This document shows positions 3,089 through 32,174 of a DNA stretch of 64,000 nucleotides, piece by piece. Position numbers and translations under genes: made by a program. Origin of the DNA: Streptomyces parvus (GTDB lineage: Bacteria > Actinomycetota > Actinomycetes > Streptomycetales > Streptomycetaceae). How positions within the stretch are numbered: position 1 is the stretch's first letter; every line of letters begins with the position of its first letter. The notes beneath the pieces are model-generated. The model searched no databases. It was not told the DNA's origin and saw only the letters and a list, made by a program, of their open reading frames with translations. The stretch lies in the NCBI RefSeq assembly GCF_032121415.1, contig NZ_CP135079.1, positions 6,386,001 through 6,450,000 on the forward strand, given 5' to 3'.

Positions 3089-3127
3089 CCTAACGAGCTC
3101 GTGCACGGTAAGCGGTGAGATGTCGAG
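3089..3127. repeat. Left terminal inverted repeat of IS5-like element
   Basis: This 39-nt arm begins CCTAACGAGCTCGTGCACGG and pairs with 4092-4130 with one mismatch. It overlaps the 3' end of the transposase gene. Confidence 0.85.
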
Positions 3128-4085
3128 GGCTTCGGTGGGACTGATGCTCACCTCTGTCGTCGGGGGCCAGGTCCGCGGTCTGCTGGTGGGACAGTAGGCC
3201 GGCGACGGCCTGGACGGTGTCGCTGATGTGCTCGTGGCGGCCGAGGTGGTGGGCCAGTCCTCCCCAGGCCTTCAGGTGGGCGATGCCGTGCTCGACCCAG
3301 TGAGGAGTGTGCCTTGCGCTATCGCTCGTGCCTTTCCTCGTACCAGTCCGGGGCGTTCTTCTTGAACTTGCGGTGCGGTGGGGTGCCCACGCGTCCGCCG
3401 GTCTGGGCGCCGAGGCCCTGGTAGCCGGCATCGACAAGGAATTGGACCACGGGTCCGTCGGCCAGGAGCTGGACCAGGCCCAACCGGAGGGAGTGGGTGA
3501 TGTCCGCGCAGCTGCCCGGCCCGGTCGGGCTGCAGAACAGCACCTGCCCATTTTGGTCTGTGAGGACCATGGTCTTGACGGCGTTCTGCCTGTTCTTGCC
3601 GGAGATGAACACGTCGCGGTCCTTACGTCCGGCCGCCGGACCCGGATCTCGGTGCCGTCGATGATGCCGGTCTGGCCACTGGCGCCGAGGTAGTCGATGA
3701 CTTCGGCCAGCGTCCGGAGTCGGACGCCGGGGCTGATCGCGCATCCCCGCTCGGCGAGCAGGGGCCGAACCTCACCGATGGCCCGGGTGATGGTGGAGCG
3801 GTCGACTCCGAACCAGCAGGCCAGCACGTCGTCAGTGGCCCCGTGACGGAGATGGACGAGGGCGGCCAGGAGTCGGTCGACGAACACAAGCCGGTGCTTC
3901 GCACCGGCGCCCACAGCACGCCTTCGCGGCCGAGAAGCCAGCTTGGCTTCGTGACACTCGTGCCACAACAGGCCCAACTCGGCGACGAGTTTGGGCATCA
4001 CATCGGTAGACAGCCCCGTGATCCGACGGTTGCTGACGATCACTGCACGAGTCACGTTCCGCACCACCCGACCATGATCAACCAC
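3090..4085 (-). pseudogene. IS5-family transposase, two compensating frameshifts
   Basis: The minus-strand frame starting at GTG 4085 encodes an N-terminal HTH region (LACWFGVDRSTITRAI) and the first catalytic Asp (IIDGTEIRV). Near 3635 the homology moves to another frame (KDRDVFISGKNRQNAVKT through VDAGYQGLG, the second Asp, to YEERHER), then returns near 3325 to the first frame, which carries WVEHGIAHLKAW with the catalytic Glu. All three DDE residues survive, but in two frames, so no intact product is made unless two shifts are programmed. Two such shifts are more than IS5 elements normally use. I call it a pseudogene. Confidence 0.8.
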
Positions 4086-4091
4086 CCAGAG

Positions 4092-4130
4092 CTCGACGTC
4101 TCACCGCTTACCGTGCACGAGCTCGTTAGG
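4092..4130. repeat. Right terminal inverted repeat of IS5-like element
   Basis: Inverted copy of 3089-3127, ending GAGCTCGTTAGG. It lies just upstream of the transposase start. Confidence 0.85.
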
Positions 4131-4269: not shown

Positions 4270-7095
4270 TTGAGGAGAGGGGCTTCCTCGATTGGCACGG
4301 GTGGGGCTGGCACGATCTACGAGTATCGAGTCGCGGCCCTGGATCTGGCCGCTCTGCTGTGCGGCGTGAGCGTTCCGGGGCTAGACGTGGTGCCGGACTC
4401 GGTCTGCCTGCAGCAGGGCAGGGAGTTCCCTCTGGACGACGTGGTGGTTCTCAACCGTGAGGGCCCTTACGAGTTGGCCGTGGAACGGCAGGTCAAAAGA
4501 ACGTTGGAGATCGCTCGCAGCAGCGATCCCTGGCGGAAGACGATCCGGCAGTGCGTGGAGAGTCTGGAGTCGTTTGGCGGGGAAATGGATGCCGACCGGC
4601 ACAGGCTAGGTGTGACCGCATCCGGCCCCTCGCATGGCTTGGAGGTGCTGCAGAGCTTGGCTGCGTACGCTGCTGCGCAGAAAGGAGTGGAGGACCTTCT
4701 GAGAATCCTGCCGGGCTTGGGCCAGGAGCACCGTCGGGTATGGAAACACCTGGCGGACACCGTCCGTGACGTACTTGCAGAAAGTGAGGCTGCTCCCGAA
4801 CAGAGGTTGGTGGAGCTAAGCGCTTTCCGAATCGCTCGACGTCTCGTCGTACAGATTGAGCCTACCGAGCAAGTCAGTCCGCGCTATCCCTACCTGTGCG
4901 CTCTGTTGAATGACCGGGTGCTTGCGGCCGAGTCCAGACATGACGCCGCTGTGGCGTACCGGATGATCGAGGCGCTGGCACAGGAGTGGGGGCCGCGGGC
5001 TGGTGTGATTGATGCTGCCATGTTGCGGACCGCACTGCAGGCTCGTGGCATCGTGTTGCGCAATGAACCGCCGGCCGGGTTGCAGCGGGCCGGTGCCTCA
5101 CACCAGGTTCGCGTGGTCGGGGAACTGGAGCCCACTGACGCCCTGCGCTTCGAGGTGCATCCCGCCATGGAGATGGGTGGAGCCCGTGGTGCGCTAGCGG
5201 TACTCCCTCCCTACATCGCCCGTCCGGCCAGCGTTGATATGGAGCTGCGGCGTGAGATAGCTGAGGCGGTCGACGGGAGCCGACTGGTGATGGTGGTTGG
5301 TGGCTCCTCAACAGGCAAGACACGATCCTGCTGGGAAGCAGTGCGGGCTGAACTCCCAGACTGGAAGATTGTGCATCCGCTGGCTCCGGATCGGCCAGCG
5401 GCACTCCTGCATGCGTTGCAGGAGGATGTGCTGCAGCCACGAACCGTGCTGTGGCTGAATGAAGCAGACCTCTACTTGCTGGTCAAGGACTACGCCGCAC
5501 AGGTCTCAGCAAGCTTGCAGGACCTGTTGACGAACCAACAGCGCGGGCCCGTCCTGGTCCTGGGCACCATGTGGCCGAGCTTCTGGGAAAAGTTGACGGA
5601 GTGCTCCGTCGAGGACGATGACCACCTGGCCACCGGGATGGGCGCGGTGAGTCAGCTTGCCGACCTGGCGGTCACTGTTCGGATGCCTGCCGCGTTCAGT
5701 GAACCGGAGTTGGCCCGTGCTGAGGCTGTAGTCAACTCCGACCCGCGCCTGACGCTGGCCCGAACCCGTGCTGCCAGTGGACGCATCGCTCAGTTCCTTG
5801 CTGGAGCCCCACATCTATGGCGACGCTACGAGCAGTCCGAAGGGGCGGCACGTGCCATTCTCCACGCTGCCATGGACGCACGCCGATGTGGACATGGTCC
5901 CCTTCTGTCTGAAAGCTTTTTGCGGGTTGCCTGTGAGGGCTACGTGGATGACTCCACATGGCACAGCTTGGACGAGGACTGGTTCGCCTCCCACCTAGCC
6001 AAGCTCCTTCGACCGCATCGTCAGCTTCCTGGGCCGCTGATGCGCCATCGGCCTCGTCCCTACGAGCCACCTACCGACAGCCCGTTGTATCAACTTGCCG
6101 ACTTCCTCCATGAGAAGAGCCGGGCAACTAGAGAGAGGGAACACCCCGCTCCCTCTCTGTGGGCGGCAGCAGCGGCACACTCGCGTACAGACACGGACAC
6201 GCGGGAACTCGCACAGGCCGCGCGTCGCCTGGGAGTGGTGAGCTGTGAACAGCTCTATCTGAAGGCGGCGGAGTGCGGCGACGTAAGCGTGCTTCGCTGG
6301 TTCACTCGTCGCCTCATTGACCTCAGACGCTTCGAGCGGGCGGAACAGATCATTGAGGGGCACTGTCTCGACGGGTTACTCCTTGGCGAGCTCTCAGCGG
6401 CTCTCGGACTTGCCGGCCACTACAAGGAGGCTGAGCACCTGGCTCGCCGGGCGTACGAGGTGAGCGGTAACCGGAACGGTCAGCGCAGCCTGGCTCACCA
6501 CTTGCTGACGCTGGGCGTGCGCCACTCGGCCGCACGTATTTACTCATGGGCCGCCGACACCGGAGACCCAGTCGCCGCGCGGTGGCTCACTGCCTACCAC
6601 GAAGCCCGCGGCGATCGGATCGCGGCAGAGCGTCTAGCGCACACAGCCCTCACGGAGTATGGAAGCCCGTCCGCAGCCCTCGCGCTTGCTCAGTTGCGTG
6701 TTACCGCCGGAGCATCCGACGATGCGCAACGATTGTGCCGAGGCATCGCCGGTCACGGCCACACTGATGCCCTGGTGGCCTTCGCGCGCGAAAGATCAGA
6801 CCACCGTGACCACGCCACTGCCACCTGTTTCTACAGTGCGGCCGCCGCTGCGAAGCACCCGAAGGCACTCGAGTGGATGTCATGGCACTGGGAAGGACGA
6901 GGTCACCATCAGCACGCCGAGGAGCTCGCACACGCAGCAGCGGCGGCCGGAAATAGCCACGCCCTGCACGGGCTCGCCCAACTGAGATTCTTCAACGGCG
7001 ATATCCACGAATCCGAGCGTCTGAATCGCGCCGCTGCGCTTGCAGGGTCAGCATCGGCCCGGGGGTGGCTAATCCGTAGAGGAATCCACCCGTGA
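4270..7095 (+). CDS. Putative nuclease-NTPase-helical repeat protein, candidate defence gene
   Basis: A 941-residue protein read from a TTG preceded by a purine-rich stretch. Residues 10-100 (TIYEYRVAALDLAALL, then LDDVVV near 56-60 and ERQVKR at 72-77) resemble the Cap4/Mrr-like PD-(D/E)xK nuclease core, with Asp and QxK as putative metal and catalytic residues. A P-loop GGSSTGKT lies at 344-351 and a Walker B-like VLWLNEAD at 393-400. From about 660 to the end come short helical repeats rich in Ala, His and Arg (RRLGVVS, LAHHLLTLG, AAAAGNSHALHGL), like TPR/Sel1 repeats. Nuclease, NTPase and repeat sensor in this order is the plan of many STAND-type antiphage proteins (Avs-like). The domain reading is mine and the phage-defence role is inference, helped by the adjoining nuclease-like gene and IS debris. 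Confidence 0.7.
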   Translation: MRRGASSIGTGGAGTIYEYRVAALDLAALLCGVSVPGLDVVPDSVCLQQGREFPLDDVVVLNREGPYELAVERQVKRTLEIARSSDPWRKTIRQCVESLESFGGEMDADRHRLGVTASGPSHGLEVLQSLAAYAAAQKGVEDLLRILPGLGQEHRRVWKHLADTVRDVLAESEAAPEQRLVELSAFRIARRLVVQIEPTEQVSPRYPYLCALLNDRVLAAESRHDAAVAYRMIEALAQEWGPRAGVIDAAMLRTALQARGIVLRNEPPAGLQRAGASHQVRVVGELEPTDALRFEVHPAMEMGGARGALAVLPPYIARPASVDMELRREIAEAVDGSRLVMVVGGSSTGKTRSCWEAVRAELPDWKIVHPLAPDRPAALLHALQEDVLQPRTVLWLNEADLYLLVKDYAAQVSASLQDLLTNQQRGPVLVLGTMWPSFWEKLTECSVEDDDHLATGMGAVSQLADLAVTVRMPAAFSEPELARAEAVVNSDPRLTLARTRAASGRIAQFLAGAPHLWRRYEQSEGAARAILHAAMDARRCGHGPLLSESFLRVACEGYVDDSTWHSLDEDWFASHLAKLLRPHRQLPGPLMRHRPRPYEPPTDSPLYQLADFLHEKSRATREREHPAPSLWAAAAAHSRTDTDTRELAQAARRLGVVSCEQLYLKAAECGDVSVLRWFTRRLIDLRRFERAEQIIEGHCLDGLLLGELSAALGLAGHYKEAEHLARRAYEVSGNRNGQRSLAHHLLTLGVRHSAARIYSWAADTGDPVAARWLTAYHEARGDRIAAERLAHTALTEYGSPSAALALAQLRVTAGASDDAQRLCRGIAGHGHTDALVAFARERSDHRDHATATCFYSAAAAAKHPKALEWMSWHWEGRGHHQHAEELAHAAAAAGNSHALHGLAQLRFFNGDIHESERLNRAAALAGSASARGWLIRRGIHP

Positions 7096-7149
7096 GTCGA
7101 GCTCTACGCAGACTTTCTCCTCGGCGCGGGCCACAGCCGAATCGCCGTG

Positions 7150-7240
7150 GACGGTGTGCAGTGCGCGGTTGGCCTGGCGGTCTCCGCCGCGGTTGAGGCG
7201 GTGGCGGTCGGTGATCTCGTACGAGCGCTCGCGCAGGGGG
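7150..7240 (-). pseudogene. Remnant of an IS110-family transposase
   Basis: Read on the minus strand, this segment encodes RHRLNRGGDRQANRALHT, the signature near the C-terminus of IS110-type transposases. No catalytic domains remain on either side. The rest of the 330-bp gap (7096-7426) has no recognisable gene. The scrap lies between two putative defence genes and shows past IS activity. Confidence 0.7.
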
Positions 7241-7426
7241 GTCGGTACGCGAAGTTCAAGACGATTGCTGGTGTCGCGGCACCCGAGTGCCCCGGAGTTG
7301 GAGGTCTCCCGTTCGTCAACTCGTCGATGTGAAACAGGTCATGACCGTAAGGTAGTTGGCACACAGTCAGCGCAGCGCCGAGCGAACGCCCAGGGATCAA
7401 AGGCGGAGCCGCAACAGGGAGATCCA

Positions 7427-8437
7427 TTGACGTCGCCGCCACTTCCCCCCATTCCTCCACCACCGGGATCCCGCATTGGGTCCGTGAAGCACATCCACCA
7501 CGTGATCGAGAACTTGATGGCTGGGCGGCCGGAGGCATGCCACTTGGCGAAGGCTCTGGCCAAGCAGGCTCGTGCCACGCACCGCCGCATGGCGAGAGCA
7601 CGTGCCGTTGGGTTCGAGGCGTACGAGACGACCCTCACCGACCTGCTTCTGACGGAGCTTGCGCATGTGGACCCGCGTTTCTGGCGGGTCGTTAGATTTA
7701 AGCCGCACGAGGAACGAGCGAACGGCGCCGACTGGGAGTGGTGGATCCAGCGGAGCGACTCATCGTGGGTGCGTCTCTGGATTCAGGCCAAGCGCCTCTA
7801 CCACCCTGGTGAGCGCTACGAGGAGCTCAAACGCAAAGTCCGGAGAGGATCAGACGGCAGGATCTGGCAGAGTCGGTTGCTGGTCGAGGCCGCGCGACGG
7901 GAAGGCCGGAACGGTGAGGTCCCGCCGGTCCCGTTGTACGCCTTCTACAACTGCCTGCAGGGTAAAAGGGCTGAGTCATGGCCGTGTACGAGACTTGCGC
8001 CCTGTCAACAGCAGCCCCTTCTCGGCATCACGATCGCCCCCGCCCAGCAGATCGACGAGTTGGTCGTGAAGGGTAAGAACAGCTACTGCGACGTACTGGC
8101 CGAGAGTAAGCCGCTGTCGTGCCTGGTGCACTGCCCGACAGCGCGGTCGGGGCATCATCAGGAGTCATACGCCTCGACGCTGCTGATGGGCATGGGAGCG
8201 CTGCACAGCAACGACGTCCTCTCTTCGACTCCGTCCCTGCCTGGTCGCATTGAAGAAGCGCTTGAGGCGGACGACGAGGTGGTCGCCGACGAGTCGGACC
8301 CTCGGATCGCTCTCATCACGGGTCACGCGGCGCTCCCCGGTGCCCGCATGGATGAAGTGCCACAGGGGTTGGCCGACCTGCGGGAGCGGTTCGACCTACG
8401 GGCACTGGAGCGGCAGGGGTGGCGGGAAACGACGTGA
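7427..8437 (+). CDS. DUF6615-like putative nuclease
   Basis: The open frame extends upstream to 7154, but the first part is Arg-rich and overlaps the IS110 scrap. I therefore start at TTG 7427, which has GGGAG 5 nt upstream; this gives 336 residues after a Pro-rich leader. The core reads YETTLTDLLL, then about 50 residues on GADWEWWI, then WIQAKRL. An acidic residue, Asp-Trp-Glu and QxK in that order fit a PD-(D/E)xK-like fold and match what I recall of DUF6615. A later part has VPLYAFYN and several Cys. Function is unproven; a restriction-like or antiphage nuclease is the natural guess given the neighbour at 4270. The family call is from memory of the motif. Confidence 0.65.
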   Translation: MTSPPLPPIPPPPGSRIGSVKHIHHVIENLMAGRPEACHLAKALAKQARATHRRMARARAVGFEAYETTLTDLLLTELAHVDPRFWRVVRFKPHEERANGADWEWWIQRSDSSWVRLWIQAKRLYHPGERYEELKRKVRRGSDGRIWQSRLLVEAARREGRNGEVPPVPLYAFYNCLQGKRAESWPCTRLAPCQQQPLLGITIAPAQQIDELVVKGKNSYCDVLAESKPLSCLVHCPTARSGHHQESYASTLLMGMGALHSNDVLSSTPSLPGRIEEALEADDEVVADESDPRIALITGHAALPGARMDEVPQGLADLRERFDLRALERQGWRETT

Positions 8438-8527
8438 CAGCGCCCCGGGCAGAGTGCGAGTCAGATCCCTGGGCACTTTTCCGCATTGGAAAGAGGCGGA
8501 GCGCCCTATGACCCGCGCTCAACTTGA

Positions 8528-8851
8528 TTAAGCACGAGGCATGTCCCACCGGGTATTGGTTCCGTGTTGCCATAGGCCCGTATTGCGTAGCAGCACTGTC
8601 ACCACCGTTCGGGTCGCCGTGTCGATGACGCAGGCGCAATCTCGACGCTGGTGGACTCGCCGGGCACCTGGGTATTTCGGGTCGCCTCCGTAGGTCTGCT
8701 CGGGAGATATGCCGCACCGCAGCACTTCACTCTCATCGAAACCGAGCTTCTTCGCCCGGGACAGGGCGTGCCGGCTCAGCGTGACGCCTGCATGCGTGCG
8801 AAGTCGGGTCAGCGCGCGCTCTCGACGAGCATCGCGTCGGTCGTTACTCAT
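8528..8851 (-). CDS. Small DUF4258/RelE-like protein
   Basis: 107 residues starting at ATG 8851. An Arg-rich N-terminus is followed by SRHALSRAKKLGFDES, a Gly/Pro/Tyr-rich middle and a strand pair RRDCACVIDTATRTVVTVLL. The H...R helix plus C-terminal V-T-V-L strand recalls DUF4258 and small ribonuclease-toxin-like folds, often found on phages and plasmids. No cognate antitoxin is next to it. Family placement is tentative. Confidence 0.5.
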   Translation of the reverse strand: MSNDRRDARRERALTRLRTHAGVTLSRHALSRAKKLGFDESEVLRCGISPEQTYGGDPKYPGARRVHQRRDCACVIDTATRTVVTVLLRNTGLWQHGTNTRWDMPRA

Positions 8852-8865
8852 GAGGCGGCATCACC

Positions 8866-9278
8866 GGACACTAGATCCATCGGACGCCCTGGACATGGCC
8901 CTGTGGCAACGTGTCCGCGAAGAAAAGACCTACCAGCGGGGCGAGTTGATACATCATTCCGATGCCGGGTCGCAATACACGAGTTTCCGGCTCGCCGAGC
9001 ACCTGGACGCCGTCGGCATCGCGGCCTCGATCAGCTCGGTCGGCGACGCCTACGACAATGCCCTCGTGGAGAGCACGATCGGCCTGTTCAAGACCAAGCT
9101 GATCAAGCCCCGACGTCCATGGAAGACGCTTTCCCAGGTCGAACTCGCCACTGCCGAGTGGATCGACTGGTACTGCCACCGCCGACTACACGGCGAAGCC
9201 GGGCACATCCCACCCGTCGAATACGAAACCAACTACTACCTCACAACCACGAAACCGCAGGTCAAAACCACAATCTGA
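8866..9278 (+). pseudogene. IS3-family transposase OrfB, C-terminal fragment
   Basis: The frame encodes the last part of an rve integrase core: ALDMALWQRV, LIHHSDAGSQYTSFRLAEHL (second Asp), SVGDAYDNALVEST (third acidic residue) and WIDWYCHRRLHGE to a stop at 9278. The N-terminal half and first catalytic Asp are missing, so it cannot work. Homology begins abruptly near 8866, next to the start of the 8528-8851 gene. The bases after the stop (GAACCCGGAACGGTTCA) look like an IS3-type right end. Confidence 0.85.
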
Positions 9279-9323: not shown

Positions 9324-9818
9324 TCAGAGGCGGAGGTGCCGGTTCGGCGCCTGGGCAGCGTTTGCGTACTCAGGCAGTGCAAGAACTATGACGCCAGCGT
9401 CTTCAAGGGTTTCGACGCCATCGGCGCCGGCGACGAAGGTGTCGGGCTCGTTCCAGGCGGTGACGACGCGGCGGAGGCCCACGTCGCGGATGAGCTGGGC
9501 GCAGGGGCGAGGTCGGGATGCCCGCCTGGCGCACGGCTCCAGGGAGCTGTAGATCGTGGCGGTCGCGAGCCGGGCGTCCTCGGCGGGGAGCTTGGCGAGG
9601 GCCCCTTCCTCGGCATGGTCGTGGGGGTCGCTCTCACGGGAGTAGCCGCGGGCGAGTTCGGTCCCGTCGGCCGCGACGACGACCGCCCCCACGCTGAAGG
9701 CGGTTTCCGAAGGTGGGCAGAGGGCGGCCAGCTCACAGGCGAGGATGAGCCAGTTCCGGTCTGCAGTGTTGGGCTCGCGGCCGGTGCCGGGGGCGCCGGC
9801 TGAAGAGGTGGTGCTCAT
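9324..9818 (-). CDS. Cytidine/deoxycytidylate deaminase-like protein (RibD deaminase half)
   Basis: 164 residues. The zinc-dependent deaminase motifs are HAEEGAL (His ligand and catalytic Glu) and LEPCAR...RPCAQ (two Cys ligands, RibD spacing). In riboflavin synthesis this activity deaminates diaminohydroxyphosphoribosylaminopyrimidine. The gene overlaps the upstream reductase gene by 4 nt (9815-9818), so the two form a split RibD. The pair lies in an accessory region, so it may serve a specialised flavin/deazaflavin-like or purine-derived product rather than housekeeping riboflavin. Confidence 0.8.
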   Translation of the reverse strand: MSTTSSAGAPGTGREPNTADRNWLILACELAALCPPSETAFSVGAVVVAADGTELARGYSRESDPHDHAEEGALAKLPAEDARLATATIYSSLEPCARRASRPRPCAQLIRDVGLRRVVTAWNEPDTFVAGADGVETLEDAGVIVLALPEYANAAQAPNRHLRL

Positions 9819-10513
9819 CGGGGCTCCGTCGAGGTGTCCTTGGGGGCGTACCTCAGGAGTACCACGTCACCGATCTGGCGGGTCTCCAGGAGCCGGAGGC
9901 GGGCGGCCGGGCCGCCGGGGTAGCTCGCGGGGCCGAGCATCCTTACCGCATCGAACTGGCCGACCAGGAGCGGGGCGATGACGAGTTGGAGTTCGTCGGC
10001 AAGAGCGGCTTCGAGGAGCTGTGTGTGAACGGTGCCACCACCTTCGACCATGAGCCGCTTGACGGCGTACGCGTCGCCGAGGATGTCGAGCGCGGCCGGC
10101 CATACGGCCTCGGCGGGGACGCTCTGAACGGTAGCCAGGTCACCGAGGTTGGCGCGAGCTTTCGCGGTGGCCTCGTGGCCCACGGCCAGGACGAGCTTGT
10201 CTCCGCCGTGGTGCCAGAACTTCCAGCCGGGATCAAGGTTGCCCGTTCCTGTGATGGTGACCTTCAGCGGGTACTCCGGCTCACCGGCGGCGACCCGGGA
10301 CGCCCTGCGTTCCGCCGAGTTGACGAGGAGGCGGGGGTTGTCGGCGCGGAGTGTGCCAGCGCCGACAAGGATCGCGTCGACACTGGCTCGTACGGAGTCG
10401 ACGCGCTCGAAGTCCTCCTTGTTGGAGAGCAGGAGTCGGTCCTCGCCCGGGCGGGTGTCAAGGTGGCCGTCGATCGATACAGCTGCGGACAGCAGGACGT
10501 ACGGGCGGGGCAC
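9815..10513 (-). CDS. RibD C-terminal-type reductase
   Basis: 232 residues of the RibD_C / dihydrofolate-reductase-like fold: LSAAVSIDGHLD at the start, RLLLSN, ILVGAGTLRADNPRL (substrate and NADPH site) and LMVEGGGTVHTQLL near 170. It should reduce the ribosyl group of a deaminated pyrimidine with NADPH. Its stop overlaps the start of the deaminase gene, so both are co-translated in the order reductase, deaminase, the reverse of the domain order in fused RibD. Confidence 0.85.
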   Translation of the reverse strand: MPRPYVLLSAAVSIDGHLDTRPGEDRLLLSNKEDFERVDSVRASVDAILVGAGTLRADNPRLLVNSAERRASRVAAGEPEYPLKVTITGTGNLDPGWKFWHHGGDKLVLAVGHEATAKARANLGDLATVQSVPAEAVWPAALDILGDAYAVKRLMVEGGGTVHTQLLEAALADELQLVIAPLLVGQFDAVRMLGPASYPGGPAARLRLLETRQIGDVVLLRYAPKDTSTEPR

Positions 10514-10542
10514 GGTATCTCCAGGCGGTGTGCGCGGGTGAG

Positions 10543-11970
10543 TCAGGCGGGATGCAGAACGATGCGGTCGAGTGAGGCGCGGAACTCGGCGACGCCGTCC
10601 TCGCCGGTTACGGGGGCCAGTGCCTGGTCGAGCCGGTCGAGCTGTCCGAAGATGCGGGCAGATCCGGTCTCGGCGGCGATCCCGACGGCCTGCCCACCGA
10701 TTCGGGCAGCGAGGGTCACATTGCCTGTGCCCGCATGGGCACGTGCAGCGCGAGCTAGGTAGACACCGCGGTCCCGGCGATATGCGGACGGGAGCACTGC
10801 GAGGGCGCTGTCAAAGCCTGCCGCGGCCTGCTCATACTCGCCGAGTGCGGCGAGGGAGCGAGCTCGGGCGGTGCTGATGTACGCCGCATCGAGCCAGGAA
10901 CCCCAGACACCGTCGGAGCCCGCGCGCCCGAGGAGAGCAAGCGCGGTGTCGTATGCCCTGTGGGCTTCGCTGCCTTCACCGAGTACGGCACGCGCGTGGG
11001 CCTCGTGCAGAACGGCGATGACTTCGAGGCGGCTCCCGGGTCGGGCGGTGCGTCGGGCGGCTGCGGCGAGGCCGAGAGCGTCGGCAGGATGACCGGTGTC
11101 GACAGCCAGCTGTGCCTTACGGCCGAGGATGTACGCGGTGAGATCGGTGTCGCCGGTGATGTGGGAAGCGTCCAGTGCCTTCGCGGTGTGGCCGTGGGCG
11201 GTGCGCTCGTCGCCGATGTCCTGGGCGAACCAGCCTGCCAGCTCTTCGTATCGCGTCTCCAGGGCGAGAAGCTCGATGGCGTCGGTGCCACGAGCGGCTC
11301 GGCGTCTCGTGGCAAGGGATACGAGGTGTTGTTGCAGGGCGGGCAACACGTGCCGGGGGCCGATGAGGTTGTCGGTCTGGATCATGACCCGGCGGAGTTG
11401 CGCGAAGTGCTCGAAGGGAGACCCCATGTCGGCGAGTTCGGTGGCAGCCGCCGGCGTCGCGGCCGGCATGGCTGTCGCAGCCAGGCCGGCGATCCCTGAT
11501 GCGAGAACAACGCGGCGGGGCACGGGCACGAAGAGGATCCTTCCGTGGATGCGGGCGGGGACGACGACCGTGTCCGTGTCGTCTCCAAGCGAGCCTGCCC
11601 GCACGACCGCGTTCATGGCCAGGGTCTCCGGGGCGCTGGCCCCATGGCCCCGTGTACTGGCCCCATGAGTCGCTGTCCCGGCTCTGGACACCGGGACAGA
11701 GCAATCCTGGGGGGCCTCGCGCTCCGCGCTGTCCCAGCCACGAACCAATGCACCGGCGGCATCGAGGATGTCGTCGAGAGTGATGGCCGCATGTTTCGGG
11801 ACGGGACGTTCAGCGCGCTCGAAGCGCCCGAGATGTGAACGGTCGATCAACGCCCGGCGAGCCAGAGCCTGCTGCGACAGCTGACGGGCCTCGCGGAACT
11901 GGCGTAGCTCGTAACCCCAGCGGTGCCATGGGCCGGCGTCCGGAGTCAGCTCGTTCGGCTGCTGCCCCAC
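10543..11970 (-). CDS. XRE-family regulator with TPR-like C-terminus
   Basis: 475 residues. Residues about 15-60 form an HTH (LRQFREARQLSQQALARRA, then SHLGRFERAERPVP). After a linker, a hydrophobic Ala/Val-rich stretch (about 160-190, RRVVLASGIAGLAATAMP) is followed by helical TPR-like repeats to the end. This is a common Streptomyces regulator layout. It lies 29 nt upstream of the RibD-like pair on the same strand, so it probably shares their transcript or controls it. Confidence 0.8.
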   Translation of the reverse strand: MGQQPNELTPDAGPWHRWGYELRQFREARQLSQQALARRALIDRSHLGRFERAERPVPKHAAITLDDILDAAGALVRGWDSAEREAPQDCSVPVSRAGTATHGASTRGHGASAPETLAMNAVVRAGSLGDDTDTVVVPARIHGRILFVPVPRRVVLASGIAGLAATAMPAATPAAATELADMGSPFEHFAQLRRVMIQTDNLIGPRHVLPALQQHLVSLATRRRAARGTDAIELLALETRYEELAGWFAQDIGDERTAHGHTAKALDASHITGDTDLTAYILGRKAQLAVDTGHPADALGLAAAARRTARPGSRLEVIAVLHEAHARAVLGEGSEAHRAYDTALALLGRAGSDGVWGSWLDAAYISTARARSLAALGEYEQAAAGFDSALAVLPSAYRRDRGVYLARAARAHAGTGNVTLAARIGGQAVGIAAETGSARIFGQLDRLDQALAPVTGEDGVAEFRASLDRIVLHPA

Positions 11971-14595: not shown

Positions 14596-14705
14596 CCCTG
14601 ACCGTCTGAACCCGGTTATCAGGTCATGAACCGCGGTCGGTGCTGTCGCGCTACTCGGCGCGTCGGCTCCGACCGCCCCTCCAGACGCACGAAGGGACAC
14701 GTCAC

Positions 14706-17700
14706 GTGGCTATACCCCCAGCGTTCAAGGCGGGCACGACCGCCCTGGTGCGCGCAGCCGCTCGACCGTCGATGACCCAGCTTCCCCTACCCGACTTCGA
14801 CGACCGGTCCTTCCGAGCCGAGGAGTTGGAGGAGATCACCACCGGACGCCTCGCCTGGCTTCGCAGCATCTGGCACGACCCGGGCATCGCACAGGCCCTC
14901 CGCCATGCCAGCCCGGTTCTCGCCGCCGAGGTCGAGGTCCTGGAGAGTGCTCACTCCCCTTCTACCCGCGAAGTCCGCCGCGTTGGAGTGTCGGTGGCGC
15001 GCTACCTCCTGCGCGCGCTGCACCGGCCCACACCGTTCGGACTGTTCGCCGGAGTCACCACGGCCACCTTCGACGCCGAGCCCCACTCCCGCTGGGGCCA
15101 GAACCACGTGGTCGTGGCCCGCGCCGGTGCGGAGTGGGTGGGGAGGCTGATCGAGCAGTTAGAAAGGAGCGGAGAGCTGCTGCCGCTCCTGTCGGTCGTC
15201 GTCAACAGCACCACCTTCGAGCGCGACGGCAGTCTCGTCGTCCCCTACCAGGACGACGGGCCGACCGGTCAGCGGCGAGCGGTCGAGGCGTCCGTCGAGC
15301 TGTCGGCGCCGGTCCGGCATATCCTCCGCGCGGCTGACGCGCCGATCCGGATCGGGGAACTCGCCGAGAAGCTGATGGCCGAGTTCCCGGCCGTGGCCCC
15401 GGAGCGCGTCAAGCGGCTCCTCGCGGGCCTGGTGCGGCAGCGCGTGCTGATCACCAACCTCCACGCGCCGGCGACCGAGACCGACGCGCTCGGTCACCTC
15501 GTCACCCAGCTCGACGGGGTCCGTGCCGAGGACATTCGTCTCCTGGCACCCGCCGTCCGGGAGCTGCGCGCCGTCCACGCCGGGCTGGAGCAGTGCGGCA
15601 CCACAGAGGGCCGGGACGCCGTAGCGACCCGGATGCGCGATCTGGTGCCGGGCCTCCGGCGTCACCCGCTCGCCCTGGACCTGTGCCTGGACGCCACCGT
15701 GGTGCTCCCCGATCTGGTCGCCCGCGAGGTCGAGCGCGCCGCCACGATCCTCACCCGTCTCTGCGCCCGCCCGTACGGTACCGAGCCGTGGAACGAGTAC
15801 CACCAGCGGTTCTACGAGCGGTTCGGCGTCGGCACCATGGTGCCGCTTATGGAAGTTGTCGCTGACAGCGGCGTCGGCTACCCGGACGGGTACCCGGGCA
15901 GGCCGACCGGCGAAGGCCGCCGGCGCCTGTCGCCGCGGGACGACGTGCTGCTCCGCCTCGCCCAGGCCGCGGCGCTCGACGGCCGCGACGAGGTCGTGCT
16001 GACCGACGAGACCGTGGCCGCCCTGGACCGAGGCCCGCAGGAGCCGCGGATACCGTGCCACCTGGAGGTGGGCGTGCGGCTGCACGCGGCCACCCTCGCC
16101 GAAATCCGCCGTGGGCGGTTCACCGTGGAGTTGACCAGCGTGTCACGCGGAGCCGGGGTTACCGCCGGACGCTTCCTCAGCGTCCTCCCGGCCACACAAC
16201 GCGATTGCCTGCGGGCGGAGTTGGCTGACCTACCCACGGCTGACGAGGGCACGGTGGCGGCGCAGCTTTCCTTCCCCGCGCTGCTGCCCGACACCGCCCA
16301 CGTCACCCGAACCCCGCGCGTGCTGCCGTTGGTGATCAGCCTGCAAGAGCACCGAGCCCCCGACGCCACAGTGCTCTCGCCGGCGGATCTGGCGCTGGCG
16401 TGCGACGGCCGCCGGATGTACCTGGCGGCTCCGGACCGCGGGCTGCGCGTCGAGGCCGTCGGCATGCATGCGCTGAACCTTGCCGAGCACACCCCGCCCT
16501 TGGCGCGGCTGATCACCGAGGTGTCCCGGGCGCAGAACGCCCAGGTCACCAGGTTCGACTGGGGCGCCGCCGCAGCGATGCCGTTCCTCCCCCGCCTGCG
16601 GTACGGCCGCATCGTGCTGGTCGCGGCCCGCTGGAGGCTGGAGGCCGGTGACCTCCCCAACCGCCATCGTCCGGGGGCGGACTGGGACGCGGCGCTGTCC
16701 GGCTGGCGGGAGCGCCGCCGCCTGCCGCAGCACGTGCTCCTCGTCCAGGACGACCGGCGACTGCCGCTCGACCTCGATGAGCCCGGCCACCGGAGCCTGC
16801 TGCGCCAACACCTCGACCGCGCCGGTACGGCGCTGCTGACGGAAGCCGCTCCTCCTGGGGCGGACGGCTGGAGCGGGGGCCGGGCCCACGAGATCGCGGT
16901 ACCCCTCAAAGCGGTCCGTCCTCCGGCCTGGCCTGCGCTGCCCACGCCGACCACCGCCCGCACGCTCTCCCCAGCCCAGATCCAGACCCCGGCCACCTCC
17001 TCGGTGCTCCTCGTAGCCCTGTACGGCGACCCGCGGCGTCAAGACGCCCTGCTGACTCGGCACGTGCCCGACCTGATGCGGCGCCTCGGCTCTCCTCGCT
17101 GGTGGTACGTCCGATTCCGCGACCCCCAGCAGCACCTTCGCCTGCGGATCGCACTGCCGGACCCGGAGGACTTCGCCGACACCACCCACACGGTCAGCGC
17201 CTGGGCCGACGAGCTGCGGACCGCTGGGCTGCTGGCGGACCTGCGCTACCCCACCTCCTACCGTGAGACGGGCCGGTGGGGCTCCGGACCGGCATGGGAC
17301 GCGGCCGAGGCCGTGTTCCGCGCGGACTCCCTGGCCACGGTGGCGCAGCTCGCCCAGCCCGTCCGGCCCGCGCAGCGCACGCTCGTGGCCGCGCACTTCT
17401 TCGCCATCGCCTCCGCCCTCCTCGGCAGCCCGGACGCCGGCGCGCGCTGGCTGATCGACCACATCGAGCCGACCGCGCCGAACCCGGTACCCCGCTCGCA
17501 GTTCGCCGACGCCGTGCGGCTGGCAGACCCGCGCGGTGACTGGGCGGCCCTGCGGTCAGCGCCCGGCGGCGCCGCGATCGTGGACGCCTGGGCCGAGCGC
17601 ACCGCTGCGCTCGCCGCGTACGGGCCGCACCTGTCTGGCCCGCACGCCGACGGCATCGCCGTGGACGGCGTACTGACCTCCCTGCTGCACGTCCACTTCG

Positions 17701-17801
17701 TGCGGCATGTCGCGGTGGACTTCCCCGAGGAAGAGGTCTGCCTGTACCTGGCCCGCGCCGCCGCCCTGGCCTTCACCGCCCGCGCCAGGAGGCGACCGTG
17801 A
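14706..17801 (+). CDS. lanB: Class I lanthipeptide dehydratase (LanB)
   Basis: 1031 residues from GTG 14706; the frame is open further upstream, but the conserved start and a GAAGGGA site favour this codon. The N-terminal glutamylation domain has RALHRPTPFGLFAGV (about 100-115). The C-terminal SpaB_C-like elimination domain has WWYVRFRDPQQHLRLRI (about 800). The expected reaction is tRNA-Glu-dependent glutamylation of Ser/Thr in the precursor, then elimination to dehydroamino acids. It is full length, unlike the split LanB of thiopeptide systems. Its stop overlaps the LanC start by 4 nt. Confidence 0.92.
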   Translation: MAIPPAFKAGTTALVRAAARPSMTQLPLPDFDDRSFRAEELEEITTGRLAWLRSIWHDPGIAQALRHASPVLAAEVEVLESAHSPSTREVRRVGVSVARYLLRALHRPTPFGLFAGVTTATFDAEPHSRWGQNHVVVARAGAEWVGRLIEQLERSGELLPLLSVVVNSTTFERDGSLVVPYQDDGPTGQRRAVEASVELSAPVRHILRAADAPIRIGELAEKLMAEFPAVAPERVKRLLAGLVRQRVLITNLHAPATETDALGHLVTQLDGVRAEDIRLLAPAVRELRAVHAGLEQCGTTEGRDAVATRMRDLVPGLRRHPLALDLCLDATVVLPDLVAREVERAATILTRLCARPYGTEPWNEYHQRFYERFGVGTMVPLMEVVADSGVGYPDGYPGRPTGEGRRRLSPRDDVLLRLAQAAALDGRDEVVLTDETVAALDRGPQEPRIPCHLEVGVRLHAATLAEIRRGRFTVELTSVSRGAGVTAGRFLSVLPATQRDCLRAELADLPTADEGTVAAQLSFPALLPDTAHVTRTPRVLPLVISLQEHRAPDATVLSPADLALACDGRRMYLAAPDRGLRVEAVGMHALNLAEHTPPLARLITEVSRAQNAQVTRFDWGAAAAMPFLPRLRYGRIVLVAARWRLEAGDLPNRHRPGADWDAALSGWRERRRLPQHVLLVQDDRRLPLDLDEPGHRSLLRQHLDRAGTALLTEAAPPGADGWSGGRAHEIAVPLKAVRPPAWPALPTPTTARTLSPAQIQTPATSSVLLVALYGDPRRQDALLTRHVPDLMRRLGSPRWWYVRFRDPQQHLRLRIALPDPEDFADTTHTVSAWADELRTAGLLADLRYPTSYRETGRWGSGPAWDAAEAVFRADSLATVAQLAQPVRPAQRTLVAAHFFAIASALLGSPDAGARWLIDHIEPTAPNPVPRSQFADAVRLADPRGDWAALRSAPGGAAIVDAWAERTAALAAYGPHLSGPHADGIAVDGVLTSLLHVHFVRHVAVDFPEEEVCLYLARAAALAFTARARRRP

Positions 17802-19063
17802 CCCACACCGCAGCCGCGGTGGCCGCCGCCATCGCCGACCGGCTCGCCCGCCCCGACCAGGCGCCGGCGGCGGTCACCGCCGAGGACAACCGGCAGCACC
17901 TCGCCTACGGCCCGACCGGCATCGCTCTGCTGCACATCGAGCGCGCCGCGGCCGGGCTTGCCCCCTGGCAGCGCGCCCATGACTGGCTGTCCGCCGCGGC
18001 CCGCGAGCCCGTCACCAGCGGCCCAGACAGCCACCCCTTCTACGGCGCCCCGGCGCTCGCCCATGCCGTGGCGTGCGCAGCCGACCAGCTTCCGGACTCC
18101 TACCGGCGCGGCCTCGATGTGCTGGACCGGCAGGTGACGGCAGACGCCCGGCGGCGGTTGGACGCCGCGCACCGCCGGATCGAGGCCGGGCAGCTTCCGG
18201 CGCTCGCCGAGTTCGACGCCATCCGGGGCCTGACCGGGTACGGCGCCCACCTGCTGCGCCGCGACCCGGCGGGCCCGATGACCCGGGCCGTTCTCGACTA
18301 CTGCGTGCGCCTGACCAACCCGGTCACTCACGACGGCGAACGCCTGCCGGGCTGGTGGGTACCGACCGGGCCGTCCGGCAGGCCGGACGACCGCTTCCCC
18401 GGTGGGCACGCCAACCACGGCATGGCACACGGCGTCGGCGCGGTCCTCGCGCTGCTGGCGCTTGCCGCCCGCCGCGGCACCACCGTCACCGGCCACCATC
18501 AGGCGATGCGCACCATCCTGGCCTGGCTGGAGCAGTGGAAGGCGCCCACCGGGCGCGGCACGGCCTGGCCGTACTGGACCACCCGCGAGGAACTGCGCAG
18601 CGGCCGGCCCGCGGCCTCGGCACCACGGCGGCCGAGCTGGTGCTACGGCACCGCGGGCCTTGCCCGCGCACAGCAGCTCGCCGCGCTCGCCCTCGGCGAC
18701 AGCGACCTCCAGGCCGAGGCCGAGGCCGCCCTGCTGGACGCGCTGAGCGACCGCGTGCAGCTTCGCGTCACCACGGACAGCGGCCTGTGCCACGGCTTCG
18801 CCGGTCTGGTCCACATCGCGGCGCGTGCCGCCGCCGACGCCGACCGGGCCACCGCCGGCCAGCTCCGCGCCATCATCCCCGCCCTTCTCACCATGCTGGT
18901 CCCGCCCGGCACCGCCCCGGACGAGGCCGCTGCCCTGTTGCTGAAGGACGCGGCGGGCGCCGGGCTCCTCGATGGTGCCGCCGGAACCGCGCTGGGATTG
19001 ACCACCGCAGACAGCGCGGAGCCGCCCCGCACCTCCTGGGACGCCTGCCTGCTCACCGCCTGA
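17798..19063 (+). CDS. lanC: Lanthipeptide cyclase (LanC)
   Basis: 421 residues, GTG start overlapping the LanB stop (GTGA). Zinc and active-site motifs are present: HGMAHG (about 207-212), WCYG (Cys282) and CHGFAG (Cys331-His332). It should add Cys thiols to dehydrated residues to close (methyl)lanthionine rings. The alpha/alpha-toroid length is typical. It is coupled to LanB and followed 21 nt later by the methyltransferase gene. Confidence 0.92.
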   Translation: MTHTAAAVAAAIADRLARPDQAPAAVTAEDNRQHLAYGPTGIALLHIERAAAGLAPWQRAHDWLSAAAREPVTSGPDSHPFYGAPALAHAVACAADQLPDSYRRGLDVLDRQVTADARRRLDAAHRRIEAGQLPALAEFDAIRGLTGYGAHLLRRDPAGPMTRAVLDYCVRLTNPVTHDGERLPGWWVPTGPSGRPDDRFPGGHANHGMAHGVGAVLALLALAARRGTTVTGHHQAMRTILAWLEQWKAPTGRGTAWPYWTTREELRSGRPAASAPRRPSWCYGTAGLARAQQLAALALGDSDLQAEAEAALLDALSDRVQLRVTTDSGLCHGFAGLVHIAARAAADADRATAGQLRAIIPALLTMLVPPGTAPDEAAALLLKDAAGAGLLDGAAGTALGLTTADSAEPPRTSWDACLLTA

Positions 19064-19084
19064 ATCCGACCGAAGGACTTCGCA

Positions 19085-21154
19085 ATGCGCTCCGACCGCT
19101 GGCAGCAGCACAACATCACCTTCCCCGACCGGGACACCGGACGGCGCGCCGTCACCGAACACCTCGCCCCCGTGCTGCTCGCCGCCGAGCCCGACGGGCA
19201 GCTCAGCGGCTGGTGGTTCATGAACAAGCAGCCCTGGCGCCTGCGATACGTCGCCGATCAGCCGTCACCGACCGTGCTGACTCTGCTGAACGAGTGGGTG
19301 GCTGACGGCACGGCGCAGTCCTGTACGACCGGGATCTACGAGCCGGAGACCGAGGCGTTCGGTGGGGCGGACGCCATGACGGCCGCGCACGCCCTCTTCC
19401 ACGAGGACAGCCGCCACCTCCTCACCTACCCCGTTTACAACGAGCACCTGGGGCGACGGGAGACTGCCATCCTGCTGATGAGCAGCATGATGCGCGCCGC
19501 GAACCTCGACTGGTTCGAGCAGGGCGACGTGTGGGCGAGGGTCTCCGCGCTGCGCCCCGGCACCGGCACGCCTGCGTCCACGCGCCTGACCTCCGCGATG
19601 CGGACCCTGATGACCACCGAGGCCCGCAGCCTGTGCCGCGAGCACGGGCCGCTGGACGGCCAGGCCGACTGGATCGCCGCCTTCGAGAGTGTCGGCACCA
19701 CGCTCGCCTACCTCGCCGCCCAGGGCGACTTGACCCGCGGACTGCGCGCCGTCATCGCACACCACACCATCTTTCACGCCAACCGTGCCGGTCTGCCGTC
19801 CGCCGACCAGCACACCCTGTTTCACATCGCACGAGAGGCAGTCATGGGTTCGAGTGAAAACACCGCGTCAGCACCCGGATCGGGCTCCGCGGCCCATAGC
19901 GTCAGCACGGTGAACACCGACACAATCACCGCCCCCGAGGCCAACGCCGAACAGCTCCGCAACGCCTTGGTCGACCAGATCAAGGCCGACGGCCACGCCC
20001 GCACCCCGGCGGTCGAAGCCGCCCTGCGCACCGTGCCCCGGCACCTGTTCGTCCCCGAAACCTCGCTGGCCGACGCCTACAACAACAGCCCGGTCAACGT
20101 GAAGTACGATCCCGAGGGCACCTCGATCTCCTGCGCCTCCCAGCCGGCCGTCGTCGCCCTCATGCTGGACCAGCTCGAAGCCCAGCCGGGCGAGCGCATC
20201 CTTGAGCTCGGCGCCGGCACCGGCTACAACGCCGCCTTGATCGGCCACCTCGTCGGCCCGAGCGGACACGTCACCACCATCGACGTCGATGACGACCTGG
20301 TCGAAGGCGCCCGAGCCCACTTCGCAGCCGCCGGAGCCACCAACGTCGAGGCCCTGACGCGCGACGGCGCCCTCGGTCACGCCGAAGGCGCCCCGTACGA
20401 CCGGATCATCGCCACCGTCGGCGCGCACGGCATCCCCCACGCCTGGCTCGACCAGCTCGCCGAGGGCGGCCGACTCGTCACCCCGCAGCGACTCACGGGC
20501 AGCGTCTCGCGCTCCATCATCTACGTGAAGCGCGACGGCCGGTGGAAGTCGGTCGGCTCGGAGATGAACACCTTCATGCCGCTGCGCCGGGGCATCGCCG
20601 ACGACGACCGCCGCGCCGTCCCGCTCAGCACGGACGGCGCCGTGCGCCTCCAGGCCCCGGCCGGCCTGGCGCTCGACGCCGACGCCCTTGCCGGTGTCCT
20701 TGACCAGCCGCGCGTCGATGAGTGGACTGGGATGACGGTCCGCGCGGGGGAGTCCCCGGAGTGGATGGAGCTGTTCGTCTCCTGCGTCCTGCCATCCGGG
20801 CTGATCCGGATGCTCTTCCCCCAGTCCGTTAAGGGCACGGTGCTCACCGATGACCCCTACCCCTCGGCCACGGCCGCCGTCGAGAAGGGCGCCGTCACCT
20901 ACCTCGCGCGGCGTCCCTCGGAGCAGAAGACCCCTGAGGGCGCCAAGCTCTGGGAGTTCGGCGTCATCGGCCACGGCCCCGGGAGCGATGAGCTGGCCGC
21001 CAAGGTCGCCGACGCGGTCCGTACCTGGGATCGCGAGTACCGCGGCCGGGACGCCGCCTTCGAGATCCTGCCGCTCGATGCGCCCGCGGACGAGCAGCCC
21101 GGTGTCTTCGTCCTCGACACCCCGCTGAACCGCGTCCGCGTCACCTGGCAGTAG
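19085..21154 (+). CDS. SpaB_C-like domain fused to PCMT-type methyltransferase (FxLD system)
   Basis: 689 residues. Residues 1-255 resemble the thiopeptide-type SpaB_C domain (WWFMNKQPWRLRYV near 43-56). A Ser/Thr/Ala linker (about 256-285) leads to a protein-L-isoaspartate O-methyltransferase-like domain with TVPRHLFVP and the SAM motif ILELGAGTGYNAA at 372-384. A C-terminal extension (about 500-689) follows. PCMT relatives in class I lanthipeptide pathways methylate an Asp, which cyclises to aspartimide and can open to isoAsp. The DDG in the precursor core is a plausible target. The extra SpaB_C copy, besides the one in LanB, may act in substrate binding. Confidence 0.88.
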   Translation: MRSDRWQQHNITFPDRDTGRRAVTEHLAPVLLAAEPDGQLSGWWFMNKQPWRLRYVADQPSPTVLTLLNEWVADGTAQSCTTGIYEPETEAFGGADAMTAAHALFHEDSRHLLTYPVYNEHLGRRETAILLMSSMMRAANLDWFEQGDVWARVSALRPGTGTPASTRLTSAMRTLMTTEARSLCREHGPLDGQADWIAAFESVGTTLAYLAAQGDLTRGLRAVIAHHTIFHANRAGLPSADQHTLFHIAREAVMGSSENTASAPGSGSAAHSVSTVNTDTITAPEANAEQLRNALVDQIKADGHARTPAVEAALRTVPRHLFVPETSLADAYNNSPVNVKYDPEGTSISCASQPAVVALMLDQLEAQPGERILELGAGTGYNAALIGHLVGPSGHVTTIDVDDDLVEGARAHFAAAGATNVEALTRDGALGHAEGAPYDRIIATVGAHGIPHAWLDQLAEGGRLVTPQRLTGSVSRSIIYVKRDGRWKSVGSEMNTFMPLRRGIADDDRRAVPLSTDGAVRLQAPAGLALDADALAGVLDQPRVDEWTGMTVRAGESPEWMELFVSCVLPSGLIRMLFPQSVKGTVLTDDPYPSATAAVEKGAVTYLARRPSEQKTPEGAKLWEFGVIGHGPGSDELAAKVADAVRTWDREYRGRDAAFEILPLDAPADEQPGVFVLDTPLNRVRVTWQ

Positions 21155-21243
21155 CTGATCCGCCTGCGTAGTGCCCGCCGACCGGCCGGCGGGCACCATG
21201 CGGCCCTTCCCCGCTCCTCGTCGTCTTCACCCCGGGGGACCTC

Positions 21244-22374
21244 ATGGACCTGAACGGGCCCATAGCCCAGCGCTTTCCGCTCATCTACCGATTCCGACCC
21301 GCGTGCCTGCCCCTGCCTCTGCGCGTGCACGGCTTGGCCGAACTCGCCGACGCCGCAGCCGCACAGGCTGACCAGGGCCTCGCCTCGGCCGTCTACAACC
21401 AGGCCGCCCTCATCGCCTCCGACCTCGGGCTCCCCGACCTCGCGCGGAAGATGTGCCACCAGCACGCCGCCGCCTACCTCCACGCCGTCCCCCTGCCTGG
21501 CATGAGCGCGATCCGCGCACTCGAACCCGTGGTGAACCTCGCACGCCTCCAGATCCGCGCGGGCGCCTCCGACGACGGGCGCCACCGTCTGCTGCACCTC
21601 TTCGACGCCGTCACCAACGGCACCAGCGCTCAGTTCGAGGGGGTCCACGTCCCGGCCGACCTCACCCTCACCGACACCGACCGCCACGTGGTGCGCACCT
21701 GGCTGTGGAAGGTAGTCCTGGCCGACGGCACGCGCACCCTGACCACGGCCGGCCGCTGGGCGGAGGCGTTGGCCCACATCAACGAACACCGGGGCATCGG
21801 GCAGCGCATGCTGGACGGCCGCCAGGTCGCCGTCCTGGCCGCGCTCAGCCACACCCCCACCGACGCCGCAGCGCTCGTCACCATGACCACTTCCGGAGAA
21901 CGCTGGGAGAACGCCGTCACCGGCTGCCTCGACGTGATGTGCAAAAAGGCCCTCCGCGGCCCGGCCGTACCCCTCCTCGACACGCTCGTCGAGGACTACG
22001 TCGAGCACCAACCCGACCAGGGCATGACCGTCTTCGACACGCGCCTCGGCCTGACGATCCTGGACCTGCTGGAGCCGCACCAGGAAGACGCAGCGCACCG
22101 GATGGCTGCAGAGCTCTACCGCCGGGCCGCCGCGGCGACCGACGGCTACGCCGCCCGTGAGTGCCTGGCCGACCATCGGTTCACCAGTCTCGCCGAGCCG
22201 CGCCAGGTCGAGGCGGCCCACCAGCTCGTCCGTGCATGCGCGCTGAGGAGGGGCAGCCTCCCCGAGCTCTGGGTCGCACGGATGACAGAGGCGCTGCGGG
22301 GCAGCGACGAGGTGATCCGCGCCAGCGTCGGGCGCTCCCACCCTCAGCGGGAAGGGACTGGCGCACAGGGCTGA
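21244..22374 (+). CDS. Helical-repeat hypothetical protein after the lanthipeptide genes
   Basis: 376 residues, mostly amphipathic helices (LADAAAAQADQGLASAVYN, ARKMCHQHAAAYLH) like a TPR/SARP-type helical array, without an HTH. It follows the methyltransferase gene by 90 bp on the same strand. Such proteins often accompany Streptomyces peptide clusters, but their job is unknown to me. The GGGGGACCTC before the ATG is an acceptable ribosome site. Confidence 0.65.
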   Translation: MDLNGPIAQRFPLIYRFRPACLPLPLRVHGLAELADAAAAQADQGLASAVYNQAALIASDLGLPDLARKMCHQHAAAYLHAVPLPGMSAIRALEPVVNLARLQIRAGASDDGRHRLLHLFDAVTNGTSAQFEGVHVPADLTLTDTDRHVVRTWLWKVVLADGTRTLTTAGRWAEALAHINEHRGIGQRMLDGRQVAVLAALSHTPTDAAALVTMTTSGERWENAVTGCLDVMCKKALRGPAVPLLDTLVEDYVEHQPDQGMTVFDTRLGLTILDLLEPHQEDAAHRMAAELYRRAAAATDGYAARECLADHRFTSLAEPRQVEAAHQLVRACALRRGSLPELWVARMTEALRGSDEVIRASVGRSHPQREGTGAQG

Positions 22375-26515: not shown

Positions 26516-27361
26516 ATGGATTCTCGGGGCGGGCAGGGTGGAGGTGGTGAACCCGTCGGCGAGTCCCTGCCTGAGCTGTTACGGGCGTGGCGTAGACGGG
26601 CGAATCCTCGACGAATCCCGGGCTTGGTGTCTACGGGGCGCCGGGGTGACGGACTCACGCAGCGCGACGTGGCCCGCCTGACTGGAGTCAGTGAGCGTTG
26701 GTATCGCGAGCTGGAGCGCGGCAATGAAGCCCAGTACTCGTCCGACTTCCTCGATCGGATCTCATCGGTGCTCGGACTGAGCCCCGCCGAGCGTCGCGCG
26801 CTGTACTTGAGAGCCGTCGGCCGCCCTCCAGCGCTTGCTGTCGTGCTGGAGGCGGACAGGGCTGCGGAAGTGGACGAGTTTCTACTCCAGCGGTTTTTGG
26901 ACGGTCAGACTCCCAATCCGGCCTTCGCGACGGACCTCGCGTGGAACGTGATCGGCTATAACGGTCCACTGGTGGATTGGTTCCCCTGGGTCACTTACCG
27001 GGCCAATCAGATGAGATGGGCACTTCTGGACCCGGAGGCCCGCGAGCAACTCGTGAACTGGGAGCAGGACTGGGCGCGCCCATTTCTTGGGCAGATTCGC
27101 TATGAGCGCGCGCATCACCCGGAGAACGAGGCGCTGCGGCAACTGGAGCGCGACATTCTCATGGAATCTCCGGCCGCACGGGAGATGTGGGAGCTTCGCG
27201 AGATGGCCGAGCATTCCCACGGTGACTTCCGCCGGCTCAGGCTTCCGTACCACCAGGGGCGGGAGGTCGCGATCCGCATCGTCGCATTGCGGCCGATGCG
27301 TAGTGATCACCTTCGGGTGGTCGTGCTGATGGAAGTCGACGAAGGCGGTGCCGGCTCCTGA
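26516..27361 (+). CDS. XRE regulator with MmyB-like ligand-binding domain
   Basis: 281 residues. The HTH (LTQRDVARLTGVSERWYRELERG, about 48-70) is preceded by LLRAWRRRANPR, and the C-terminal half has NVIGYNGPLVDWFP and LREMAEHSHGDFRRL, the PAS-like MmyB domain that in related proteins binds a small ligand. It is transcribed away from the ImmA operon and probably regulates that divergent promoter and itself. Confidence 0.85.
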   Translation: MDSRGGQGGGGEPVGESLPELLRAWRRRANPRRIPGLVSTGRRGDGLTQRDVARLTGVSERWYRELERGNEAQYSSDFLDRISSVLGLSPAERRALYLRAVGRPPALAVVLEADRAAEVDEFLLQRFLDGQTPNPAFATDLAWNVIGYNGPLVDWFPWVTYRANQMRWALLDPEAREQLVNWEQDWARPFLGQIRYERAHHPENEALRQLERDILMESPAAREMWELREMAEHSHGDFRRLRLPYHQGREVAIRIVALRPMRSDHLRVVVLMEVDEGGAGS

Positions 27362-27403
27362 GCGCCAGGAGGAGGCATGCTTCGGAATGAAACCCAGCTG
27401 TCC

Positions 27404-28598: not shown

Positions 28599-28599
28599 C

Positions 28600-30326: not shown

Positions 30327-30441
30327 CTCCCCACAGGCCACCCCGCCGGACCGCGCCCCGCAGCGCCGTCCGAGGGGGCCTACCGCCAGCGCACCTCTCC
30401 GCCGACGCCCCTGCGCGCGGAGAGCGATCGGAGCACCCCGC

Positions 30442-32120: not shown

Positions 32121-32174
32121 CCCGCTCCGCACGTCTTCGAGACATCCCGCCACAGCAGAAGCGGAGAGCACCCG

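Follow-up and report, generated by a model that had tools for sequence, protein, structure and literature searches.

The window (the whole stretch of Streptomyces parvus DNA that we analysed, 64,000 nucleotides long) carries near its start a gene for a 941-aa protein, with an insertion sequence upstream and two smaller genes downstream. The features, given by position in the window and strand, are as follows.

3093..4126, minus strand: IS5-like element of 1034 bp with terminal inverted repeats and TA flanks at 3091-3092 and 4127-4128
4270..7095, plus strand: NLR/STAND-like 941-aa protein with a nuclease-like N-terminus, a P-loop core and C-terminal helical repeats
4270..5079, plus strand: N-terminal module (aa 1-270) of this protein, with a Cap4-like PD-(D/E)xK pattern, D56-D57 / Q74-V-K76
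5110..6312, plus strand: P-loop ATPase core (about aa 281-681), with Walker A at 344-351, a Walker-B-like motif at 395-398, T433-x-W435 and LAGxP at 510-514
6190..7080, plus strand: TPR/Sel1-like array of about nine two-helix repeats, a putative sensor
7442..8437, plus strand: putative PD-(D/E)xK-like nuclease of the DUF6615 family, GADWEWW ... QAKR (Pfam match)
8528..8851, minus strand: DUF4258-like 107-aa protein (Pfam match under the cut-off)

Purifying selection acts on the 941-aa gene, with a dN/dS of 0.25 in comparison with S. globisporus and 0.21 in comparison with a plasmid homologue (67% identical); the DUF6615 gene has a dN/dS of 0.24. Because these values are all in the range of 0.21-0.25, we consider both genes to be real. 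The 941-aa gene starts with TTG, and this start is supported by the homologues, which open with the same M-x-x-GAS. The complete DUF6615 ORF spans 7154-8437 on the plus strand and matches PF20320 at residues 158-305 (E 1e-14; 55.1 bits, above the cut-off of 23.8), and its true start is probably nearer 7442 than 7154. The 107-aa ORF matches DUF4258 with an E-value of 4.5e-4, which is under the Pfam cut-off. An earlier annotation of this DNA, made from its letters and open reading frames (the sequence-only reading), described the product as a small RelE-like protein; the ORF is there, and all that stands behind the label is this sub-threshold match.

The window matches S. globisporus JCM 4378 at 95%, and JCM 4378 has an intact empty site (a single TA) for the IS5-like element, whose terminal inverted repeats are near-perfect and which was inserted 143 bp upstream of the 941-aa gene. 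An IS3-type rve fragment is found at 8709-9278; the IS5 and IS3 debris that the sequence-only reading saw around the genes is thus accounted for. The 1034-bp element now separates the gene from 0.5 kb of upstream sequence common with S. globisporus, as would be expected if the locus were a decayed or silent remnant whose gene had been severed from its promoter by the insertion, but 143 bp of shared upstream sequence is left, the reading frame is unbroken and selection has kept dN/dS near 0.25, and we consider such a remnant improbable. The transposase of the element is split over two frames (a 331-aa ORF with HTH_Tnp_4 and a 141-aa ORF), either frameshifted or programmed.

Other genes of the window include a tyrosine recombinase (Phage_integrase) at 1459-2595 on the plus strand; the stretch shared with S. 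globisporus begins 20 bp past its stop codon, and an integrated element may end just past this gene. Cytidine-deaminase-like and RibD_C-like genes, then an HTH regulator with possible repeats, are found at 9324-11970 on the minus strand. Large genes on the plus strand at 14640-22374 (1053, 421, 689 and 376 aa) resemble by eye a lanthipeptide-type (LanB/LanC-like) cluster, and the genes at 26516-35341 (HTH, WhiB-like, DUF2637-like, replication-like) resemble by eye those of an actinomycete integrative element. WhiB-like and DUF2637-like genes are also found near a core gene and a DUF6615 gene in another locus (L104).

In the core of the 941-aa protein, the P-loop GGSSTGKT occupies residues 344-351 and WLNEAD residues 395-400. 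Across 30 family members, no substitution is seen at S346, G349, K350, R352, W395, L396, W435 and P514, and hardly any at N397-E398, T433 and LAG (510-512). The Walker B of the core has a single acid (N397-E398). Judged by its motifs, the 941-aa protein has the P-loop with Walker A and a putative Walker B that characterize STAND proteins, and LAGxP at 510-514, which we compared with the GxP motif in the winged-helix/helical region of STAND proteins, is nearly invariant in the sequence alignment of this putative fold. The motifs of the core and of the N-terminus are not chance occurrences, because they are conserved among the 30 core members and among seven relatives of the module, respectively. 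All 30 cores weakly resemble AAA_16 (best E 4e-8), five of them resemble nSTAND5 and one resembles nSTAND3; across 149 genomes, a search for nSTAND5 yielded a single member. For the window protein, nothing was above cut-off with the STAND, nSTAND, NACHT and NB-ARC models (its AAA_16 and nSTAND5 matches are weak), and nothing reached cut-off with the Pfam, NCBIfam and PADLOC models or the PDB sequences. Among openly licensed publications we found no paper on this core family.

The C-terminus consists of about nine two-helix units, and sequence comparison with solved structures gave a weak match to the Sel1-repeat structure 3rjv (E 0.04). The repeats at aa 780-910 are also the best-modelled part of the AlphaFold prediction for the whole protein (pLDDT averaged over blocks of 10 residues reaches about 83), whose alignment contained three sequences and whose mean pLDDT is 42. 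With this alignment, AlphaFold did not resolve the N-terminal module (pLDDT about 25-35 over the putative PD-(D/E)xK region) and most of the core.

The motif residues of the N-terminal module are D56, D57, Q74 and K76. The DD pair (56-57) is invariant in all 16 aligned rows, and QxK is found in seven of them, which are the branch of the window protein and the related giant ATPases. The N-terminus therefore shows a putative PD-(D/E)xK motif pattern, i.e. a D plus QxK on what would be neighbouring strands. Seven relatives retain DD...QxK, down to 27% identity and including one from Neorhizobium. The module is also found on proteins of 1565-1616 aa encoded by Streptomyces plasmids (39-56% identity) and on an ATP-binding protein from Neorhizobium that is 1719 aa long (27% identity), in both cases with DD...QxK retained, so that, as far as the alignments tell, the head of the window protein is mobile between ATPase types. 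Remoter carriers (716-1874 aa) have AVRR instead of QxK; since these distant relatives lost QxK, the fold of the module is not always catalytic. That DD...QxK is kept in the branch of the window protein and in the giant cousins favours a head that cuts DNA over one that only binds it. Altogether, the putative PD-(D/E)xK motifs, the P-loop at 344-351, the Walker B-like NEAD and the C-terminal repeats that the sequence-only reading described in a 941-residue protein were all found in place, with the motifs conserved.

The head resembles Cap4/DUF4297 (PF14130) in the order of its motifs (a helix with YxxR/YQ, then LDD(I/V)V, then QVK), and the alpha-beta-beta-beta-alpha-beta order of the two is apparently alike by eye. 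Searching the 941-aa protein with PF14130 gave no match above cut-off, genome searches with PF14130 had no hit in the genome that contains the window, and an hhalign profile comparison with PF14130 members aligned a short helix alone, with a probability under 5%. Three giant carriers of the module (L188, L189 and L192) match PDC-M54A, a PADLOC phage-defence candidate, with E-values of 3e-8, 1e-11 and 1e-18, and in two of the three the match spans the N-terminus plus the ATPase. The window protein itself, in which the module sits on another, shorter ATPase core, does not match PDC-M54A. A carrier of a related N-terminal module (L082:2554-6978) matches STAND_TPR (PDLC01173) with an E-value of 8e-127; STAND_TPR describes an HTH- and TPR-containing ATPase that is catalogued, for Streptomyces, as associated with a type I-E CRISPR system lacking cas1, and its ATPase is not recognisably the core of the 941-aa protein. 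No relatives of the N-terminal module were found on viral contigs.

We then examined how widely the core occurs. Full-protein matches were found in 188 of 296 genomes of the genus at an E-value of 1e-3, where the weak ones may be matches to the repeats only. Using an alignment-based search (E 1e-10), the core was found in 41 of 101 Streptomycetaceae genomes, representing 7 of 17 genera, as compared to three among 296 genomes sampled from the phylum as a whole, and two of these three belong to the window's own genus. Relatives are also found on 95 plasmid records (84 from Streptomyces). No annotated phage matched the 941-aa protein, and viral contigs contain only one core relative.

At least 30 homologues share 35-47% identity with the core and have variable N-termini. 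We scanned 60 N-termini found on the core for domains: HTH is the commonest head (at least 26 of 60), and the others include Mrr_cat nuclease (three), Trypsin_2 (two; E 3e-15), TIR_2 (one; E 4e-23) and caspase C14 (one; E 2e-11). Effector heads on a P-loop/repeat chassis are a recognised plan of STAND immune proteins. In a tree of the cores (FastTree, without support values), Mrr heads are on two separate branches, and the TIR, caspase, trypsin and Cap4-like heads are on one each; because the heads occupy separate branches, the gains of effectors look independent.

The many HTH heads raise the question of whether the family is mainly regulatory, i.e. an ATP switch with a DNA-binding head as in the AfsR/SARP-type STAND regulators, with the nuclease-headed form a minor one that binds DNA rather than cutting it. 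The chassis may well serve regulation too, the family is almost wholly confined to Streptomycetaceae, in which regulators of this type abound, and related N-terminal modules without QxK exist. TIR, caspase, trypsin and Mrr heads, however, are effectors and not regulators, and neither the branch of the window protein nor its giant-ATPase relatives have lost DD...QxK, which makes a mainly regulatory family unlikely in our view. With roughly even odds, the ATPase-repeat chassis is a widespread, unnamed class of NLR-like immune receptors of the Streptomycetaceae's own, present in ~40% of genomes, that has repeatedly exchanged its head for a TIR, caspase, trypsin, Mrr or Cap4-like one; the window's protein would then represent the nuclease-headed branch, with a head in common with the PDC-M54A-type giants.

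The genomic neighborhood of the core genes was scanned with PADLOC, with mirrored loci as controls. Around core genes we found type II REases, PDC-S07, PDC-M01A, PtuA, DrmD and DpdE, as compared to mostly GajB/UvrD-like helicases and mads_2 matches in the control loci. Specialised defence models are thus commoner near core genes than in controls, by a modest difference that we regard as weak, being based on small counts, with families rather than genes tallied. The plasmid homologue of the 941-aa gene is flanked by a NACHT gene on one side and by three-component ABC genes on the other. The antiphage island of the sequence-only reading remains a candidate, with defence as its putative role. By eye, two proteins near core-family genes (L103:11720-15664 and L105:14835-16175) have Cap4/DUF4297-like starts.

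The gene downstream (7442-8437) encodes a member of DUF6615 (PF20320), a match that concerns this gene and not the 941-aa protein. The family retains GADW and QAK, and a model built for the window protein and its relatives from viral contigs shows alpha-beta-beta-beta-alpha-beta around D97, Q115 and K117, with a core pLDDT of mostly about 75-89. Its top Foldseek match is human Rep15 (E 2e-5), and its PDB matches, all weak (E 0.1-2), include a Holliday resolvase, EcoRV and MspI. According to this model, the DUF6615 protein is probably a PD-(D/E)xK-like nuclease, in agreement with the second such protein (GADWEWW...QAKR) proposed in the sequence-only reading, now with a DUF6615 match above cut-off and a predicted nuclease core. 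No papers on DUF6615 or PDC-M54 were found among the openly licensed literature. DUF6615 genes are also found on ten viral contigs (IMG/VR, L194-L203), i.e. the family is carried by viruses or proviruses as well.

The 941-aa and DUF6615 genes are on the same strand with about 350 bp between them, and could form one two-gene system; the sequence-only reading treated them as a combination. Among 13 other Streptomyces genomes, three have a distant DUF6615 gene at most about 7 kb away from a core-family gene, where a rough estimate predicts some 0.1-0.2 such cases, and in one further genome DUF6615 is near a Cap4 gene. The three cases, however, are unlike in orientation and spacing and in what lies between the two genes, be it other genes or a transposase. 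The identity with S. globisporus breaks off 3 bp past the stop codon of the 941-aa gene, and other genes follow there, with no DUF6615; the plasmid homologue has no DUF6615 annotated nearby either. Conversely, Streptomyces genome G099 has the DUF6615 and DUF4258-like genes together (93.5% identity over 1.6 kb), and no core gene is found in the 11 kb read around them. Since each gene is found without the other beside it in its closest relatives, the two probably do not belong to a single system; on this synteny we rejected DUF6615 as the partner of the 941-aa protein, and consider a two-gene system very improbable. DUF6615 genes tend to turn up in the same islands as defence genes, and such co-residence fits their nearness to core genes better than a common system does. 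The DUF6615 and DUF4258-like genes appear to be separately acquired cargo of the same island.

The effector-NTPase-repeat layout of the 941-aa protein is common to the Avs proteins (AVAST; STAND NTPases, e.g. Avs5 and Avs3/Avs4). The protein is about half the usual length of an Avs, and the PADLOC Avs models gave no match to its ATPase core. Avs5 is tripartite, has a TPR/Sel1-like sensor and carries only one acid in its Walker B (PMC12931631), and the 941-aa protein is like Avs5 in all three. The plan is strengthened by the swapped heads and by the match of module sharers to the PADLOC candidate PDC-M54A. The Avs/STAND defence plan of the sequence-only reading is therefore supported in its layout, whereas membership of the Cap4, Avs or STAND families is not borne out by the models.

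Weighing the above, we interpret the 941-aa protein as an immune receptor of the NLR/STAND-like type, with a head that would be a Cap4-like nuclease and a mode of action like that of Avs proteins, and give this reading a probability of about 0.6. The repeat array would either bind something made by a phage or plasmid or keep the protein off until such a product appears; upon ATP binding the core would oligomerise, bringing the nuclease heads together so that DNA is cut, and the cutting would either stop the infection or kill the infected compartment. The adjoining DUF6615 and DUF4258-like genes would be separate cargo of the same island.

Immunity in Streptomyces has been mapped far less than in enterobacteria. 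If the receptor reading is true, filamentous bacteria would have a layer of immunity that is still off the map: its chassis occurs in some two fifths of the Streptomycetaceae genomes, yet none of the defence and domain libraries that we searched contains it. TIR and caspase heads are also found in cell-death pathways of animals and plants, and the family would, if the reading holds, provide a natural comparison set in which one switch drives different killing enzymes.
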